Assembly (NCBI GenBank): GCA_007126575.1
Contig: SLBA01000084.1
Coordinates: 1 to 32,725, forward strand
DNA: 32,725 nt
DNA from: Gemmatimonadota bacterium
Lineage (GTDB): Bacteria > Gemmatimonadota > Gemmatimonadetes > Longimicrobiales > Gaopeijiaceae
Reading direction: 5' to 3'
The translations under genes were made by a program, and so were the position numbers. Shown in pieces: positions 4,692 through 18,698 of the stretch; position 1 is the first letter of the stretch, and each line of letters starts with the position of its first letter. The notes beneath the pieces were generated by a model that was not told the origin of the DNA, searched no databases, and saw nothing but the letters and a program-made list of their open reading frames with translations.

Positions 4692-7600
4692 TCAGTCGTA
4701 CCGCATTCCCGGCCAGAGGGCCAGGTTCCTCACATGGACCTCGGTGTCGACCGAGTGGCCGAAGATTCCCAGCCGCCAACGAACCTCTGCGTCGTTTCGC
4801 ACGCGCACCGGGAACCGGCTGACGAATTCCCCATTGAGGAAGGTGGAGAGCTCCCCGTCGGCGCGAAGCTGGATGGCCAGGTGGACCCAGTCGTCCGAGG
4901 GAAGGTGCTCTCCGACGTCGATGGGGATTCCGCCCATGAGGTGGTTGATCCAGCCGGCCTTCCCGGGGTCGAACTGTGCCAGATCTCCTCCCGGATAGCG
5001 GAAACAGACGAACTGCCGAAGGGCCAGGTCGAACCACTCGATCGTCTCGTCGGTCTCCGAGGAGATCTCCGAATCCATTAGGCAGAAGCGGACGTCCTGA
5101 CGGTCGATGCGGGTGAGCGGAAGCAGGAACTCGATTTCGGCGGTTCCGCCCTCGATCAGGCTTCGGGCCTCGCGCTGGACCAGGCCGTCGGTATAGCGCC
5201 CGTCCCCCCGGAGCCGGAGGACCGGATTCCCGTCGAGCGTCGCGGGCATCGGCGTGGGGTATCCCACCCGCTGCCACCGGTCGGGGTCGATTCGTTCGAA
5301 CCGATCCTCCAGAACCGTGCCCGAGCGCTCCTCCCCTCGTACCTCGATCTCGAACCCGGCGGTCATCCATCCATCCCAGGTCGCGCGAATCGTCGCCTGC
5401 CCGGGGCTGTTCGCAAAGACCCTCCCGTCGTCGGCGACCGAAGCCACGGCCGGGCGGTCCGACTCGAAGGTCGCCATGACCTCCCGCGTGGATCCGTCCG
5501 TCTGCTCGAGACGTGCGCTCAGCGGGAGGATCTCTCCCCAGGAGAGGATCACCGGCTCGTCCGCCGCATCGAGAACGTGGAGCCGATGGGGAATCGCCGA
5601 GGGCTCCTGGCCGCGCCAGTAGATCTTCGCACTCCGGTCCAGGGGGACCGGGAGGAACTCGGTCGCTCCGCTCTCTCGATCGAGGACCACGTGAGCCATC
5701 CCCATGTCCGAGATCGAGGTGTACGCAATGAAGCGACCGTCCGGTGAGCAGCCGAAGCGTGGGCCGGGAAGTCCGGCGGTTACGAGGGTCTCGGACTCGC
5801 CGGTCTCGACGTTCAGGACCTCGAGCCCCGTCCCCTCGGGATCGAGGGTCAGGTGCAGGAGTTCGTGCCCGCTGCCGCACCACTGCAGGGCACCGGTTCC
5901 CGCGTGTGGCGCCGACCGGAGGAGGGTGCCGTCGGGGCTCATGACGAACAGGCTGTCAGCAGTCGAGGCGGCGATCCGTCGACCGTCGGGGGAGACGCTC
6001 GCGGTGCTTCGGATGCCGAACCGGGACAGGAGGAGGGTGGGCTCGCCGGTCTCGAGGTCCATGCGATACAGATCGCGCGTGTACACGGGTGAATTCCGGT
6101 CCTCGGAGCTGTAGAGGATTGACCGTCCGTCCGGGAAGACATCGGCGAAGTAGTCGTCGCCTTCGGTTCGGACGACTGTACGAAGGGAGTCGGCACCCGT
6201 GCTCATGACGATCCAGGGTGGATCCTCGACCGTGGTGCCCCGCTTGAACCATGCAAGCTCGCCATCGGGGAGCCGGTGGACTCCCTCGACGGTCGACTCC
6301 CGAAGCCCCGGCTCCACCACCGTCTCGACCGTCCATTCCGAGGGGGGGCCGGCGTCGGGATGCACCGCCAGCGCCTGGTCCTCGTAGACCAGGAAGATAG
6401 ATCCACCCCCGCCCACCGGTTCGGGGTTCTCGCCCCGGGCCAGCGGTCCTCCGAGCGTCGCGGCGGCGGCCATCACGAGAAGCACCGATGCGGCCGACCC
6501 GATCCACCAGAGGACTCTTCTGGTTTCGGGCTTCGAGTCGGGGCTCCCCACGGGTACGAATCGGTCCCGGGCCGTGGCCCGGATCTCGTCGTGGCTGAAT
6601 CCCAGCGTGTCGTCGCGCGTCCAGCTCAGGACCCCTCGTTCGAGCAGGGCATGCAGCGAGGCCGAGAAGGTGGCCGAATCAAGGCCCGAACGCTCCTGGA
6701 GCACCCGGGGAGGCAGGGGGCGATGCGCATCGACGAGCACCTCGAGGATCCGGATCGAATCGTCGGTCAGGCCCTGGAGCTTCAGATCCAGGAGTCCCCG
6801 AACCGAGCTCGGAAGGGGGAGGTCGTCGGGGAAGCGATCCACGTGCAGGACCCACTCCCCCTCTTCGTCCGGCTCGAGGACCGCGCGCTCGTGAAGCGTC
6901 TGGAGCACCTCGACCAGGAAGAGGGGATTGCCTCGCGACAGCAGGTAGATGCGGTGCAGGATTCCGCCCACACCGGATTCCGGGTTGAACTCGGCCAGCA
7001 GGCTCACCGCTTCCCGCACATCGGCTTCGGAGAGCGGGCTCAGGTCGATCCGGAGCAGCCCGTCCCCTTCGGAGAGGAGGCGGACCGCACGCTCGAGCGG
7101 GACATCGTGCCCCTCCGACCGGCAGGTGAGGAGCGTCAGCACGGACTCTCGGTGGAGTCTCCGAACGGTCCTGAGGATCACCGAACGGCTCTTGGCGTCC
7201 GCCCACTGCAGGTCGTCGAGCGAGAGGACGAGTGGGGCGTCATCGGTGACCGCGGCGAGCAGGTCGTGCAGGGCCTCGGAGATCGCGGCCCCGGTGGGCT
7301 CCCCCAGGATCACGGGCCCCGGGTCGGGGGGCGCGCTTCCCCCGGTACCATTCATTCCGAGTCCCGGGAGGAGCGTCCGAAGAATTCGGTCCGAGTCCCG
7401 GCCGATGCCGGCGGCGCCCGAAAGCTTGAGAAGCTGACGGAGCACGTCGTTCAGGAAACTCCAGTCGAGGGTCTCTTCGCCATTCTGCGCCTTGACCCGG
7501 ACCGTCCGGGCGCCATCTGCCGCAGCGTACGTGGTGACCTGCTCGGCCAGTCGGGACTTGCCGATCCCGGCCTCACCAGTGATGAGCGCCCGCTGTGCCT

Positions 7601-8414
7601 TCCCCGTCCGGGCCACGCGCCAGGCCTGTACGAGTGCCGTGTACTCCGAGGTTCGCCCGACGAACTCCAGCGTCACGGTATGCGGGTCGTCGGCGCCCTC
7701 GTAGGGCCTCCTGCGCAGCTGACGGAGGTTGAAGGCCCGCCGATCGGCCTCTTCGAGGGTCGATCGGTCCTCGGAGAAGTCCTCCCTGACCCTCAGGATC
7801 TCGATGTCGGCCCGCTCGAAGTCTCGCTCCACGATGATCTGGTCGATCAGGGCCAGACGGATCGAGGCGCGGTAGGGCTGGACCCGGGCCGCGGCCTCGA
7901 GGAGGAGCATCCGGTCCGCGAGGTCCGAGGTCTGATGCGCCCACTCGAAGAGGGAAGAGGCCACGATCTGCTCCGCTTCGGTTCGGACGCGATCAGTCCA
8001 TCGCTGCCATTCCGGAAGCTCCGGGAGCACGAGATAGTGGAAGGGCGGCTCACGCCAGATCGCCTCCAGTGCCTCGGGTGATGCCGGCCGGGAGGGATTG
8101 CGGGTCAGGGTGCGCAGGTCCGACGAGATCCGATCGGAGGCCAGCTGGACCGGGTCGTCGGAGAGGAAGAGCTCCTCTCCGAGGTGCTTTCTGAGGAGCC
8201 AGAGTGCCTGCCGGAGCGACGCACGGGCCTTTTTCGGGGTAGTGTCGGGCCAGAAGAACTCGGCCAGCGTCGCACGGGAGACCGGCTCGTCCTCGAGGTG
8301 GAGGTACGCCAGGAGCGCCAGGGGTTTTCCGATCGGTATCGAAAGCTCGACTCCATCGCTGTCGACGATCTTCGGTGGGCCGAGGAGTTCGAGGCGGATC
8401 GGGTATGACGGCAT
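4692..8414 (-). CDS. Membrane-spanning BTAD/AAA transcription regulator with extracytoplasmic propeller, Ig-like and ConA-like domains
   Basis: A 1240-aa multidomain regulator. Residues 1-100 resemble an OmpR/SARP winged helix (FFWPDTTPKKARASLRQAL) and 100-250 a BTAD helical domain. Residues 255-560 form a STAND/AAA ATPase with Walker A GEAGIGKS (about 276-286) and Walker B LVLSLDDLQWAD. One transmembrane helix (about 635-660), flanked by KPETRR on the inner side, separates this from the rest. Outside, 680-950 is a TolB-like beta-propeller with SPDGR repeats, 950-1028 a bacterial Ig-like (Big_2) domain, and 1030-1240 a LamG/ConA-like jelly roll. Predicted topology is N-terminus in, so DNA binding and ATPase would be cytoplasmic and the sensor extracytoplasmic. 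Family knowledge supports each domain; their joint action is inferred. It is divergent from the hybrid kinase at 8720. No strong ribosome site is seen. Confidence 0.82.
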   Translation of the reverse strand: MPSYPIRLELLGPPKIVDSDGVELSIPIGKPLALLAYLHLEDEPVSRATLAEFFWPDTTPKKARASLRQALWLLRKHLGEELFLSDDPVQLASDRISSDLRTLTRNPSRPASPEALEAIWREPPFHYLVLPELPEWQRWTDRVRTEAEQIVASSLFEWAHQTSDLADRMLLLEAAARVQPYRASIRLALIDQIIVERDFERADIEILRVREDFSEDRSTLEEADRRAFNLRQLRRRPYEGADDPHTVTLEFVGRTSEYTALVQAWRVARTGKAQRALITGEAGIGKSRLAEQVTTYAAADGARTVRVKAQNGEETLDWSFLNDVLRQLLKLSGAAGIGRDSDRILRTLLPGLGMNGTGGSAPPDPGPVILGEPTGAAISEALHDLLAAVTDDAPLVLSLDDLQWADAKSRSVILRTVRRLHRESVLTLLTCRSEGHDVPLERAVRLLSEGDGLLRIDLSPLSEADVREAVSLLAEFNPESGVGGILHRIYLLSRGNPLFLVEVLQTLHERAVLEPDEEGEWVLHVDRFPDDLPLPSSVRGLLDLKLQGLTDDSIRILEVLVDAHRPLPPRVLQERSGLDSATFSASLHALLERGVLSWTRDDTLGFSHDEIRATARDRFVPVGSPDSKPETRRVLWWIGSAASVLLVMAAAATLGGPLARGENPEPVGGGGSIFLVYEDQALAVHPDAGPPSEWTVETVVEPGLRESTVEGVHRLPDGELAWFKRGTTVEDPPWIVMSTGADSLRTVVRTEGDDYFADVFPDGRSILYSSEDRNSPVYTRDLYRMDLETGEPTLLLSRFGIRSTASVSPDGRRIAASTADSLFVMSPDGTLLRSAPHAGTGALQWCGSGHELLHLTLDPEGTGLEVLNVETGESETLVTAGLPGPRFGCSPDGRFIAYTSISDMGMAHVVLDRESGATEFLPVPLDRSAKIYWRGQEPSAIPHRLHVLDAADEPVILSWGEILPLSARLEQTDGSTREVMATFESDRPAVASVADDGRVFANSPGQATIRATWDGWMTAGFEIEVRGEERSGTVLEDRFERIDPDRWQRVGYPTPMPATLDGNPVLRLRGDGRYTDGLVQREARSLIEGGTAEIEFLLPLTRIDRQDVRFCLMDSEISSETDETIEWFDLALRQFVCFRYPGGDLAQFDPGKAGWINHLMGGIPIDVGEHLPSDDWVHLAIQLRADGELSTFLNGEFVSRFPVRVRNDAEVRWRLGIFGHSVDTEVHVRNLALWPGMRYD

Positions 8415-8719
8415 CGCGGGGCTGTGCGCTGGATGAACAGGAACCTGGACGGGTCGGGGTTACGACGTGACGTGACCCTTGCGGGTCACGCACCTGCATA
8501 GTGATGCGATGACGGAAATGATGCCAGTGGGCCGCCGAATCGGGCCCTGCGCGGGCCGGGGGTTGATGACCTCCTCCCTTGCGGGACGGAATGTCGCATC
8601 GCAGGTTGAGGCGAGGGGATGGTCTTCGTCGGACCACCCGTCTTTTGTTCGGGCTCCCTCTTCCACGCAGTGCACGATTCCCGAGAAGGCTCCGACTCCC
8701 CGGTGTTCCAGGAGGTTCG
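8415..8719. other. Divergent intergenic region
   Basis: A 305-bp gap between the divergent 1240-aa regulator and the PAS hybrid kinase. It contains the inverted repeat at 8471-8490 and a strong ribosome site (GGAGG, 8711-8715) for the kinase. An open frame in register with the kinase extends up to 8579, but its residues are Arg-rich and unlike a domain, so the region is treated as non-coding. No convincing -35/-10 pair was found in either direction. Confidence 0.6.
8471..8490. promoter_or_regulatory. Perfect inverted repeat, possible operator
   Basis: Perfect 8-bp arms CGTGACCC and GGGTCACG separated by TTGC. It lies 57-76 bp upstream of the start of the minus-strand regulator and about 230 bp upstream of the kinase. 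There is no T-tract, so it is not a terminator; position and symmetry suit a dimeric regulator binding site, perhaps autoregulatory. Function is inferred. Confidence 0.4.
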
Positions 8720-13849: not shown

Positions 13850-16303
13850 TCAATTCGCCAGCTCGTCCTGCATGCGCGGGTCTTCGCGCAGTTCCTCGAG
13901 TGCCCCCGACTGCTCGAACAGCTGAGGGGGGTATCCGTTTCGGAGGGCTTCTCCGATCCAGCGGATGGCGTCTTCGCGGTCTCCGATCTGCTCGTAGATC
14001 TCTCCGGCTCGAAAGAGGACCTCGACGTGCCCGCTCGCGACCTCGAGGGCGTCGGCGAGGAGCGCCCGGCTTCGGGACGGCTCGTCCAGGTTGGCGTGGG
14101 CGGACGCCAGGTAGATCATGATGTCGGGGTTCCTGGGATTCACCTCGAGCGCGGACCCGCCGAGCTCCAGGACTCGCCGGAAGGCGTCGAGGGCCCGGGA
14201 CTCCTCGTCGGGAATCTGCCGGTAGGTCGACGCCAGGTGTCCCCACAGGGCGAAGTTGCGCTCGTTCAGCTCGAGCGCGGATTCGAAGGCCCGGGCGGCC
14301 TCCTCGAGCCGGCCCTGGTGGTAGTGGAGGGTCCCCAGGTTCGAGAACCCCACATCGGTGGGGCCGATCTCGAGGGAGCGGTCGAAGGCGATCTCGGCCT
14401 CCTCCAGACGACCCAGGAAGAAGTGGGTCGCTCCCAGGTTCGTCCAGCCCCTGGCATTGTCGGGGGTCACCTCGAGCACCTTCTGGAACTGCTCGAGCGC
14501 CTCCTCGTGCCGGGCCCTCCGATTATAGAAGGTGCCCAGCGCGTTGTAGCCGATCCAGAGGTCGGGGTTCAGCTCGATGGCGAGCTTCAGCTTCTCTTCG
14601 GCACGCGACGGCTCGCCGAGATCCCCCCAGGTCTGACCCAGCGCAGTGAGGGCCTCTCCGGAGAAGGGTTCGAGTTCCACCGCGCGCTCCAGCGGTTCCA
14701 GTGCTTCCTCGTGCCGACCGGTGGCCGCCAGGGTGAGCCCCAGCGTGAGGTGGGCCACGGCCAGGCGATCATCGAGTGCCAGGGCACGTTCGACCGCCTC
14801 GCGGCCGAGCTCCAGCTCCCGGGGGTCGAGGGTCAGCTGGTACCGTCTGAGGTGCGCCTTGCCGAGTCCCGAGAGTGCCAGGAGGTACTCGGGGTCCCGG
14901 TCCAGCGCTCGTTCGAAGAGCCGGATCGCCTCTTCCACGTTCTCGAGCCGCTCGAACCGCTGGAGGTGCCCAGAGGCGCTCACCTGGTCGGCGTACGCCT
15001 CGGGGTTCTGGGTCGCTCCGGCCGTGAGCGCCTCCCGCTCCCAGTCTTCGAGCTCGACATCGAGCAGGTCCTGGAAGGCGCCCAGGATCCCGTTCTGGAT
15101 CGCCATCGGGTCCGAGAGGGGTTCGTCGAGGGCCCACCGCCGGCGCAGCTCCACCCGTTGGGCGTCGACCAGCTCGGCCTCGACCCAGATCGAATCGCCG
15201 TTGAAGCGAAGCGTGCCGGTGATCGCCAGGTTGGCGCCGAACTGCTGGTGGGCCTGAGAGGGTGCGGACACTCCGGCCTCGCGGATCTCGACCTGCGGGA
15301 TGACCGAGAGGGTCCCCCGGAGCCCCTCGAACTGGCTGAGCCGGTCGGAGAGGTTCGCGGCGAGGCCGCGTGCGAAGTCGGCGGTCTGGGCGTCGCCCCC
15401 GATCGCACGGAAGGGGATCACCGCGATGCGCTTGTCCGCGGGGAGGGTGGTCGAGCCATTGCCGGGACCGGCCACCTCGACCCGGTCCTGCTGCAGCACG
15501 AACCATCCCGCGGCCGATCCCAGGGCGAGGACCCCGAAGATCACGATCAGGTGAGTGGCCCGGAGTCGGCTTCCGGCCAGGCGGTCCCGGAGCCCTCCGC
15601 CCTCGCCTCCGCCGCCGAGGACCCAGGTGATCGCGACCGCGAGTGGGAGGCCCACGAAATGGAAGGCGAGGAGGCCGAGGAACGCCGCGTGGGGGAGCAC
15701 GGCTCGTTCGACGAGGACATTCGTGAGCTCGAGGGAGCCCACGGCAAACCCGATATAGAGGAGCCCGACCTGGACGATGCGGCGCGATCGGATCTTTCGG
15801 ACCAGCCCCTGCACTCCGCTCGGCCCCGGCTGGGCCTCCCAGGGTTCGTACTCGCGCGCCCACTGGGCCATCTCGACGAGGGTACGCCGCTGGTCCTCGA
15901 CCCAGTGCTCGATCTCGGGAAAGACCGAGGCGTCCAGCTCTTCGAGAAAGGGTCCCCGATAGATGGCGAGTGCGTCCGCGGCGCGGCGGCCCGCGACGGC
16001 TTCGCGAAAGCGTTCCACATCGATCGTGACCCGTCCCGGGTCGACCCTGAGTCGTTCCTCTTCCAGCATGAAGACGCCCGGGCCGAGAACCTTCTGCAGC
16101 TTGTCGACCACCGCCTTCAGCTCGGCCTTCCGCTCCTCGGGAGGATGGTCCGGCCAGAGGAGGTTCGCGAGGCTCGTCGCCGAGCGGGGGCCGTCAAGGG
16201 CCAGGATCACCAGCAGTAGAAAGCCCGGGCTCTCCGGGGGAAGGGAAAGGGGGAGCCCATTCCGAAACGCTTCGGCGCGGCCCAAGGTGACGAGATCGAT
16301 CAC
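13850..16303 (-). CDS. BTAD-type winged-helix regulator with three TM helices, TolB-like and TPR domains
   Basis: 817 aa. Residues 1-95 form a winged helix (LLWPDHPPEERKAELKAVVDKLQ) and about 95-165 a short BTAD-like segment (YRGPFLEELD...EIEHWVEDQRR). After a basic RKIRSRR come three hydrophobic helices (about 175-195, 204-230, 248-271). A TolB/FlgO-like domain (about 295-425) begins RIAVIPFRAIGG, and a long TPR array (about 450-800) follows. With the N-terminus inside, three helices place the TolB-TPR half outside the cytoplasm. It is probably a membrane-tethered one-component regulator that senses an envelope partner; this is inferred from architecture. It is the first gene of the minus-strand run leading to the molybdenum hydroxylase and is divergent from the OM barrel gene. 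Confidence 0.85.
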   Translation of the reverse strand: MIDLVTLGRAEAFRNGLPLSLPPESPGFLLLVILALDGPRSATSLANLLWPDHPPEERKAELKAVVDKLQKVLGPGVFMLEEERLRVDPGRVTIDVERFREAVAGRRAADALAIYRGPFLEELDASVFPEIEHWVEDQRRTLVEMAQWAREYEPWEAQPGPSGVQGLVRKIRSRRIVQVGLLYIGFAVGSLELTNVLVERAVLPHAAFLGLLAFHFVGLPLAVAITWVLGGGGEGGGLRDRLAGSRLRATHLIVIFGVLALGSAAGWFVLQQDRVEVAGPGNGSTTLPADKRIAVIPFRAIGGDAQTADFARGLAANLSDRLSQFEGLRGTLSVIPQVEIREAGVSAPSQAHQQFGANLAITGTLRFNGDSIWVEAELVDAQRVELRRRWALDEPLSDPMAIQNGILGAFQDLLDVELEDWEREALTAGATQNPEAYADQVSASGHLQRFERLENVEEAIRLFERALDRDPEYLLALSGLGKAHLRRYQLTLDPRELELGREAVERALALDDRLAVAHLTLGLTLAATGRHEEALEPLERAVELEPFSGEALTALGQTWGDLGEPSRAEEKLKLAIELNPDLWIGYNALGTFYNRRARHEEALEQFQKVLEVTPDNARGWTNLGATHFFLGRLEEAEIAFDRSLEIGPTDVGFSNLGTLHYHQGRLEEAARAFESALELNERNFALWGHLASTYRQIPDEESRALDAFRRVLELGGSALEVNPRNPDIMIYLASAHANLDEPSRSRALLADALEVASGHVEVLFRAGEIYEQIGDREDAIRWIGEALRNGYPPQLFEQSGALEELREDPRMQDELAN

Positions 16304-16591: not shown

Positions 16592-17137
16592 ATGACGGCA
16601 TCGATCCGAACCGCACTCCTTCTCTTCCTTCCGCTCGTCTTCGTTTCATCGCTGACCCCCCTCCATGCGCAGCAGCAGCAGGGAGACAAGGAGCTCCAGT
16701 TCTCTGCGTCGTTCCTCTCGACGATGGGGCAGGAAGGGGTTTCGGTGACGTCGGCGCTGGTCCAGGCCAAGGGCGGCTATTTCCTGACCGACCGGGTCGA
16801 GATCGGGGCCTTCCCGAGTCTCGTCTACGCGCGCGGTAGGGTAGAGATCGCGGGTCAATGGCAGACGGTCAGTGAGTCGAAGCTGGGTATGGGCGTCTTC
16901 TCGAGCTATTCGTTTCTCTCGGACGACGCCATGACCGTCCCCTATCTCGGGGCCCAGTTCTACAAGATGGATCTGACCGACGACGACGAGACCGGATGGC
17001 TCGGAGCGAACGCCGGCGTGAAGTTCTACCTCAATCGATCGACGGCCTTCGATGTCGGGGGCAACTACCTGATCGGGCTGGGGGACGGGGGCGGTGCGCT
17101 CGTCCTTTTCCAGGTCGGCCTCAGCTTCCTCCTGTAG
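16592..17137 (+). CDS. Small outer-membrane beta-barrel protein
   Basis: 181 aa. A signal peptide with a clear hydrophobic core ends at PLHA|QQQQ. The mature part alternates polar and hydrophobic residues (ELQFSASFL, GYFLTDRVEIGAF, KLGMGVFSSYSF, AGVKFYLNRSTAFDVGGNYLIG) and ends in VGLSFLL, the pattern of an eight-stranded OmpA/OmpW-like barrel. No specific pore or enzyme motif is visible. The GGGAG at 16581-16585 selects the ATG at 16592 over a longer frame starting at 16490. It lies 4 bp upstream of the WD40-CsgG gene, so the two are almost certainly one operon. Confidence 0.82.
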   Translation: MTASIRTALLLFLPLVFVSSLTPLHAQQQQGDKELQFSASFLSTMGQEGVSVTSALVQAKGGYFLTDRVEIGAFPSLVYARGRVEIAGQWQTVSESKLGMGVFSSYSFLSDDAMTVPYLGAQFYKMDLTDDDETGWLGANAGVKFYLNRSTAFDVGGNYLIGLGDGGGALVLFQVGLSFLL

Positions 17138-17141
17138 CGCC

Positions 17142-18698
17142 ATGACGACCGAGATCCGTTCGCTCGGAGCGCCCACGGCGCTGGCCCTTGCCGCAGTCGC
17201 GCTCGCCCCGTTGAACGCCCACGCCCAGGCACTGACCCTCAGCCCCGAGCGGACCCTGGAGCGGGAGAGTGCGGTCGCCAGCCTCGATTTCTCGTCCGAC
17301 GGTGCCCTCCTCCTGGTCGGCTCCGAGGAGGGCGATCTGGCCCTCTTCGATCCGGGTTCCGGGGAGGCCCTCCGAGAACTGAGAACCGACGCGGGACCCC
17401 TCCGCTTCGCGGGCTTCACCACCGGTGATACGGCGCTGGTGAGTGTCCACGAAGACGGTTCGATCCTGCACTTCGGCGTCGAGGGGGACGAGCCTCCGGC
17501 CCGGCTGAACACCGGGGACCGACCCACCCGGGTGGCCCTCGATACGGGGCGTCGATACCTGGCGGTCGCGACGACGGCCTCGACGATCGAGATCTTCGAC
17601 CTGCCGACGCGGCAGCGAATCGGGGTCATCGACGCGCGGGGCGATCTCGATGACCTCCTGCACCTGGGCTTCGACCGACTCGGCCGGCAGCTCCAGGCGG
17701 TCACGCAGCGGGGATCCGTCACCGCCTGGAACCCCTCGACGCTGCAGGTCCTGCGGCGGGTGACGCTGCGGGGCGAAGAGCTCTACGGATCGCGCTCGCT
17801 GGTGCACTCGGTCGGCGCGGATCGGAGCGCGAACGTGATCGTGGTCGCACTCGAGGAGGTCGCGCTGCCCAGGGGCGGGCTCCGAGGTCCCGCGCGCCCG
17901 GGAGACCTGGAGCGGCGGGATCAGCTGATCGTGTACGACTGGCACAGCGGGGCGGGGATCAAGGGTGTGCCGGTCCCCGACGGGGTGATCGAACACCTCG
18001 CCGTGGGCCCCGGGAACGATCACGCCGTGGTGAGCTACCGCGACCGGGTGAGTGTGATGGACCTGAGAGCGGCGGAGCGGGGGGCGCAGCTGACGGCGCC
18101 CGGACCGGTCACCCGCCTCGCGGTCTCTCCCGACGATGGGCGGCTCGCGGTGGGGACCGCCGACGGCCAGGTCGGCCTCTGGGAGATGGCGTACCGCCAG
18201 CCGGTCGCCGCCGACGAGCTCGACGAGGTCGTTCCCGGCCTCTCGGGCCGACTTCGGATCCTGGGCGATGACACGCCGGCGATCCGCCCCGAGGCGATGG
18301 AGGTGCCCGTGGTCGTGGCCGTCTTCCCCTTCGACGACCGTCAGGGAGACGAGAACATGCCCGCCATGGTCGCCGAGCTTCTGGTCACGCAGCTGGCCAA
18401 CTCCGAGCATGTCCGCCTGGTGGAGCGGCTCCGGATCGATGCGATTCTGGAGGAGCAGGAGCTTCAGCGTCAGGGCCTAACCGAGGCCAACGGCATCCGG
18501 CTCGGCCAGATCCTCAATGCCGACCTGATCGTCCTGGGAAGCATCGGCGCCTTCGGCACGAGCCACACCCTCAGCGCCCGCATCCTCGACACCGAGACAG
18601 GCGAGGCGATCAGCGGCCGCCAGGTGCTCTGCGAGGACTGTCGAGCCCAGGACTTCTTCGACCTGGTCCATCTTCTGGGCACCGCCATCGCGCGCTGA
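17142..18698 (+). CDS. Exported WD40 beta-propeller / CsgG-like fusion protein
   Basis: 518 aa. A signal peptide (cleavage near NAHA|Q) leads into a WD40-like propeller (about 35-380). The repeats are irregular, such as VASLDFSSDGALLLVGSEEGDLALFD and TRLAVSPDDGRLAVGTADGQVGLWE. A C-terminal CsgG/FlgO-like domain (about 390-518) begins VVVAVFPFDDRQG and includes LVERLRIDAILEEQ and ADLIVLGSIG. CsgG-type domains form or assist periplasmic/outer-membrane assemblies such as the curli pore; here the lipobox and long transmembrane hairpins of CsgG are not evident, so a pore is not assumed. The start is 4 bp after the barrel stop, suggesting a joint envelope function. Confidence 0.8.
   Translation: MTTEIRSLGAPTALALAAVALAPLNAHAQALTLSPERTLERESAVASLDFSSDGALLLVGSEEGDLALFDPGSGEALRELRTDAGPLRFAGFTTGDTALVSVHEDGSILHFGVEGDEPPARLNTGDRPTRVALDTGRRYLAVATTASTIEIFDLPTRQRIGVIDARGDLDDLLHLGFDRLGRQLQAVTQRGSVTAWNPSTLQVLRRVTLRGEELYGSRSLVHSVGADRSANVIVVALEEVALPRGGLRGPARPGDLERRDQLIVYDWHSGAGIKGVPVPDGVIEHLAVGPGNDHAVVSYRDRVSVMDLRAAERGAQLTAPGPVTRLAVSPDDGRLAVGTADGQVGLWEMAYRQPVAADELDEVVPGLSGRLRILGDDTPAIRPEAMEVPVVVAVFPFDDRQGDENMPAMVAELLVTQLANSEHVRLVERLRIDAILEEQELQRQGLTEANGIRLGQILNADLIVLGSIGAFGTSHTLSARILDTETGEAISGRQVLCEDCRAQDFFDLVHLLGTAIAR

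Follow-up and report, generated by a model that had tools for sequence, protein, structure and literature searches.

The gene at positions 4692-8414 encodes a 1240-aa protein that we consider fairly likely to be a one-component transmembrane transcription regulator, with an AfsR-like switch inside the cell and a periplasmic sensor outside. It is located in the window, i.e., the entire 32,725-nucleotide stretch of the Gemmatimonadota contig SLBA01000084.1 analysed here, and its product is predicted to place a SARP-type DNA-binding module and a STAND ATPase before a single membrane helix, and a TolB-like propeller, a Big_2 domain, and a weakly ConA/LamG-like end domain after it (Table 1).

The ORF starts with ATG, and its GC contents at the three codon positions (0.71/0.48/0.84) match those of coding DNA in this stretch. 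Purifying selection acts on this coding gene, with a dN/dS of 0.19 for the whole gene and 0.12 to 0.31 for its separate domains, relative to the sister-species ortholog on contig REBS01000111.1 (a Gemmatimonadales MAG). The C half is the faster-evolving part (82% identity to this ortholog vs. 93% in the N half), and the divergences of the two halves are correlated (Mantel r 0.84, 39 proteins). In the divergent intergenic region, a 41-bp block identical in the sister species (a comparison of two genomes only) is a candidate promoter/operator; neither SARP-type 11- or 22-bp direct repeats above chance nor a sigma-70-like promoter was found in this region.

Table 1. Coordinates and basis of the features assigned to the gene, its product, and the upstream region
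Feature	Position	Strand	Basis
Whole gene, 1240 aa (winged helix-BTAD-STAND-TM-propeller-Big_2-jelly roll)	4692..8414	-	ORF, Pfam, GC, dN/dS
SARP-type winged-helix DNA-binding domain, residues 1-100	8115..8414	-	Profile match to AfsR/EmbR; AfsR contacts conserved
BTAD/TPR-like helical domain, residues 101-245	7680..8114	-	Pfam BTAD in relatives; profile match
STAND-type AAA_16 ATPase and winged helix, residues 246-625	6540..7679	-	AAA_16; MarR_2/HTH_IclR at 548-597
Walker A GEAGIGKS (280-287) and Walker B D400-D401, within STAND ATPase			Motifs invariant
Predicted transmembrane helix, residues 634-656	6447..6515	-	dG -0.85; position conserved
Predicted periplasmic TolB-like PD40 beta-propeller, about residues 657-940, with C846 and C889	5595..6446	-	PD40; TolB model match
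Big_2 Ig-like domain, about residues 941-1030	5325..5594	-	Pfam Big_2
Weakly ConA/LamG-like C-terminal domain, about residues 1031-1240, with C1111 and C1137	4695..5324	-	Weak Laminin_G_3; Cys alignment
Candidate promoter/operator, 41-bp block	8490..8530	.	Identical in sister species; two genomes only

The predicted cytoplasmic half

A preliminary description of this DNA proposed a winged helix-BTAD-AAA arrangement for the N-terminal half, which is borne out by profile matches to AfsR and EmbR, an AAA_16 domain, and intact Walker motifs. The profile of residues 1-245 (31 sequences) matches both AfsR (8hvr, 8.5e-16) and EmbR (2fez, 1.1e-15) end to end, and the SARP homology to these two proteins covers residues 5-235. 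Pfam AAA_16 is called at residues 250-425 (5.7e-22, above the curated cut-off), and both Walker motifs are intact in all 12 sequences compared. Pfam calls BTAD in 6 of 11 close relatives and not in the 1240-aa protein itself, on which the Pfam wHTH model makes no call either.

Most of the residues by which AfsR contacts DNA (taken from PMC10936776) are retained. W74 and R87 of AfsR correspond to W55 (31/31 relatives) and R68 (29/31), R94 corresponds to R75 (R or K in all 31), and K76, at another DNA-contact position, is R or K in 22/31, while T88 is replaced by Q69 (29/31). The base-reading R92 of AfsR is L73 here, at a position that varies among relatives, as would be expected if paralogs recognise different sites. 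The unconserved R92 equivalent and the silent Pfam wHTH model might instead mean that the DNA-binding domain has lost its function, leaving the protein as a STAND scaffold in the membrane. We give this very little credence, as the remaining contact residues are near-invariant in the 31 relatives and residues 1-245 have a dN/dS of 0.17 (vs. the sister ortholog).

AfsR restrains its own SARP domain through the NOD and TPR domains, an inhibition that is relieved when ATP binds (PMC10936776). The 1240-aa protein has the features that define the SARP/BTAD class, i.e., a winged helix followed by BTAD, most of the AfsR contacts, and a NOD/STAND ATPase with Walker motifs. The soluble C-terminal TPR sensor of AfsR is absent, and a membrane helix and a propeller half are found in its place; the protein is therefore not classed as AfsR. 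A match to the TOMM kinase/cyclase model (TIGR03903) was rejected (86.9 bits vs. a cut-off of 705.75), the matching part being the STAND domain.

The predicted membrane helix and outer half

The protein probably crosses the inner membrane once. Its sole predicted membrane-inserting segment, residues 634-656, has a dG of -0.85 by our in-house approximation of the biological hydrophobicity scale (vs. +7.2 for the next-best segment), in agreement with the helix suggested earlier at about residues 635-660 with a positive-inside flank. Directly preceded by RR (residues 632-633), it follows the STAND winged helix and is itself followed by a conserved Gly-rich linker; a helix occupies this junction with the C half in 11/11 close family members. 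Among 63 non-redundant proteins of at least 600 aa, an automatic rule detected the junction helix in 37 of the 38 that carry the C half vs. 8 of the 25 without C-half homology (Fisher 1.6e-8), some of these eight having other outer halves. The single exception (L043) has a TM segment (dG -3.26) that the rule missed, since a mis-set start shifted it out of the permitted position range; with it, the C half is accompanied by the helix in 38/38 non-redundant family members, all in Gemmatimonadota. Five BTAD-STAND proteins from other phyla (Nocardioides, Deinococcus, Meiothermus, Cupriavidus plasmids) have no TM helix. With a DNA-binding domain and at least one TM helix in one polypeptide, the protein is, by prediction, a transmembrane transcription regulator.

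Two features bear on its orientation. K/R residues are more frequent on the N side of the helix than on the C side (mean 4.0 vs. 1.4; N side higher in 34/37), and the C half has an even number of cysteines in 36/37 sequences (p 5.5e-10 if independent) vs. 18/37 for the N half, although the 37 sequences share ancestry and neither the charge nor the cysteine counts are independent draws. The C-half cysteines mostly number four, members with 0, 2, 4, and 6 being included; such even numbers fit disulfides, and therefore an oxidising compartment. Together, the positive-inside bias and the paired cysteines indicate an N-in/C-out topology, placing the C half outside and not in the cytoplasm, the location that the preliminary description had named as contradicting its proposal. 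The same description had named, as a second such outcome, a buried helix of the ATPase, with which the entire protein would be cytoplasmic. The TM prediction is approximate and the segment is Ala- and Gly-rich, but we regard a buried helix as highly improbable: the segment is the only one with a negative dG, follows the STAND winged helix, always occurs with the C half, and keeps its position while its sequence diverges, and the charge asymmetry and paired C-half cysteines likewise argue against it.

A large cytoplasmic module carried by a single helix would also suit regulated proteolysis, in which the sensor would set off a cut at the membrane or close to it, freeing the N half to work in the cytoplasm. 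The aligned sequences diverge most in the stretches flanking the helix on both sides, which is compatible with this alternative; however, no conserved protease-candidate neighbour occurs among the compared loci, and we consider it unlikely.

For the outer half, the propeller and the Ig-like domain proposed earlier are recovered, whereas the jelly roll is weaker than had been stated. Pfam calls PD40 at residues 744-772 (3.6e-7) and Big_2 at residues 956-1012 (3.7e-5), both above the curated cut-offs. AlphaFold models of both halves (two sequences only) were poor, with mean pLDDT of 38 and 48 and the propeller alone usable; the confident part matches TolB with Z 18.4 and rmsd 2.7 over 173 residues. 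The protein has a PD40 propeller, and its assignment as a full TolB was rejected (25 bits vs. the NCBIfam equivalog cut-off of 343). The end domain weakly resembles LamG/ConA, matching Laminin_G_3 at 0.014 here and 3.8e-4 in the best relative, with no PDB match below 0.4.

Cysteines serve as signal input in ToxR-type regulators, and the paired cysteines here might themselves be the input of a thiol-redox or envelope-folding sensor. All close relatives have four C-half cysteines (C846 and C889 being invariant in 11 sequences), and in one subfamily, the C75-type genes, a PpiC-type rotamase gene lies directly downstream in the same direction in 7 loci (L038:5588-7024 and six related), the partner of C75 having a lipoprotein-like start. 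Yet structural disulfides would yield an identical pattern, and no rotamase gene lies beside the 4692-8414 gene. This possibility, to which we assign a low probability, refines the reading as a transmembrane regulator more than it contradicts it.

Family members and neighbouring genes

The cross-genome search for the domain order, suggested in the preliminary description, recovered the same full order in close relatives from at least seven genera of the family. Longer relatives (about 1320-1405 aa), with about 80-100 extra residues N-terminal to the helix, are present in other families of Gemmatimonadota. Rather than being a lone oddity, the protein thus belongs to what looks like a whole receptor class, found across the phylum with 38 non-redundant members and several per genome. 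At least six BTAD proteins with a predicted helix are encoded in this genome (those at 4692-8414 and 13850-16303, and C75, C20, C32, and C140), together with three apparently soluble ones (C67, C97, and C12); the assignments for C32 and C12 were read from sequence only. A scan of genome contigs matched just the ortholog in the sister species and, through the propeller alone, a single locus from Acidimicrobiia, and the viral-contig search gave one weak STAND match only.

Several of the proteins encountered differ in architecture. The product of 13850-16303 (-) has a BTAD-like N-terminus, two or three TM segments, a TolB_N/FlgO-like stretch (by eye), and many TPRs, and C140 (L056:5539-8523, -) is a membrane-tethered BTAD-TM-FGE-sulfatase-peptidase S9 fusion with enzyme-like outer domains. 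L149, L152, and L156 (about 1030-1070 aa) have the BTAD-STAND-TM order but an outer half of another, shorter kind, the first two sharing a 'SWGDP' motif. L173 (G192:C10) is a 717-aa BTAD-STAND protein with a very hydrophobic anchor (dG -4.7) as its tail. In G098:C5 and G096:C219 (L157 and L164), the regulator gene occurs in two tandem copies, suggesting local duplication. Also in the window, 17094-18698 (+) encodes a CsgG-like domain fused to a WD40-like propeller.

Known systems and proposed mode of action

The protein shares with AfsR, a large SARP (SARP-NOD-TPR) of Streptomyces, the order of winged helix, BTAD, and STAND, as well as contact and Walker residues. Instead of the soluble TPR sensor of AfsR, however, its STAND domain leads via the membrane helix to the predicted periplasmic half with propeller, Ig-like, and putative jelly-roll domains. 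EmbR (SARP and FHA, Mycobacterium) is similar throughout the SARP domain, but receives its input via the FHA domain and lacks both STAND and a membrane helix. The outer half shares the PD40 propeller fold with TolB, which is soluble, periplasmic, and has its own N-terminal domain, whereas the propeller here is tethered and fused to a regulator. Similarly to ToxR/CadC-type regulators, one polypeptide is predicted to combine a cytoplasmic N-terminal winged helix, a single TM, and a periplasmic C half; in those regulators, neither a STAND ATPase nor a BTAD is known to separate the winged helix from the TM.

STAND ATPases are usually regarded as cytoplasmic switches with soluble sensors; the usual picture of a transmembrane regulator is a winged helix joined to a small periplasmic domain. 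Each of the two types is known, and their combination was not found in the literature searched: no description of a membrane-bound BTAD/SARP-STAND protein was found, an absence that is not proof. The text of a census of transmembrane regulators (PMC10269533) mentions no BTAD and no AAA/STAND domain among those it covers. As the DNA-binding domain is missed here by the Pfam wHTH model, Pfam-based surveys such as this census could overlook the class.

We propose that the AfsR-like module (SARP winged helix, BTAD, and STAND ATPase) may be restrained inside the cell by the protein's own C-terminal part, and be joined by the single membrane helix to a disulfide-bonded periplasmic sensor consisting of the TolB-like propeller, Ig-like, and ConA/LamG-like domains. 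The signal would probably come from the envelope, as a glycan, a protein, or a folding state. A change in the sensor would pass through the helix, upon which the STAND switch would bind ATP and, by analogy with AfsR, inhibition would be lifted; the SARP domains could then recruit RNA polymerase at target promoters from the membrane. We infer that an envelope ligand would control the switch without a kinase. For the phylum as a whole, we put the chances as about even that these proteins are membrane STAND receptors with an AfsR-type switch operating across the membrane: the nucleotide state of the DNA-binding STAND ATPase would depend on a periplasmic ligand, or on the condition of the envelope, sensed by the same polypeptide, again with no kinase, and the outer sensor halves would differ between members.

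The class unites a STAND switch and a transmembrane regulator, in many copies, in a phylum with few tested regulators. It offers a direct test of the idea that a binding event in the periplasm can drive an ATP-dependent transcription switch, and could tie an envelope signal directly to gene expression.
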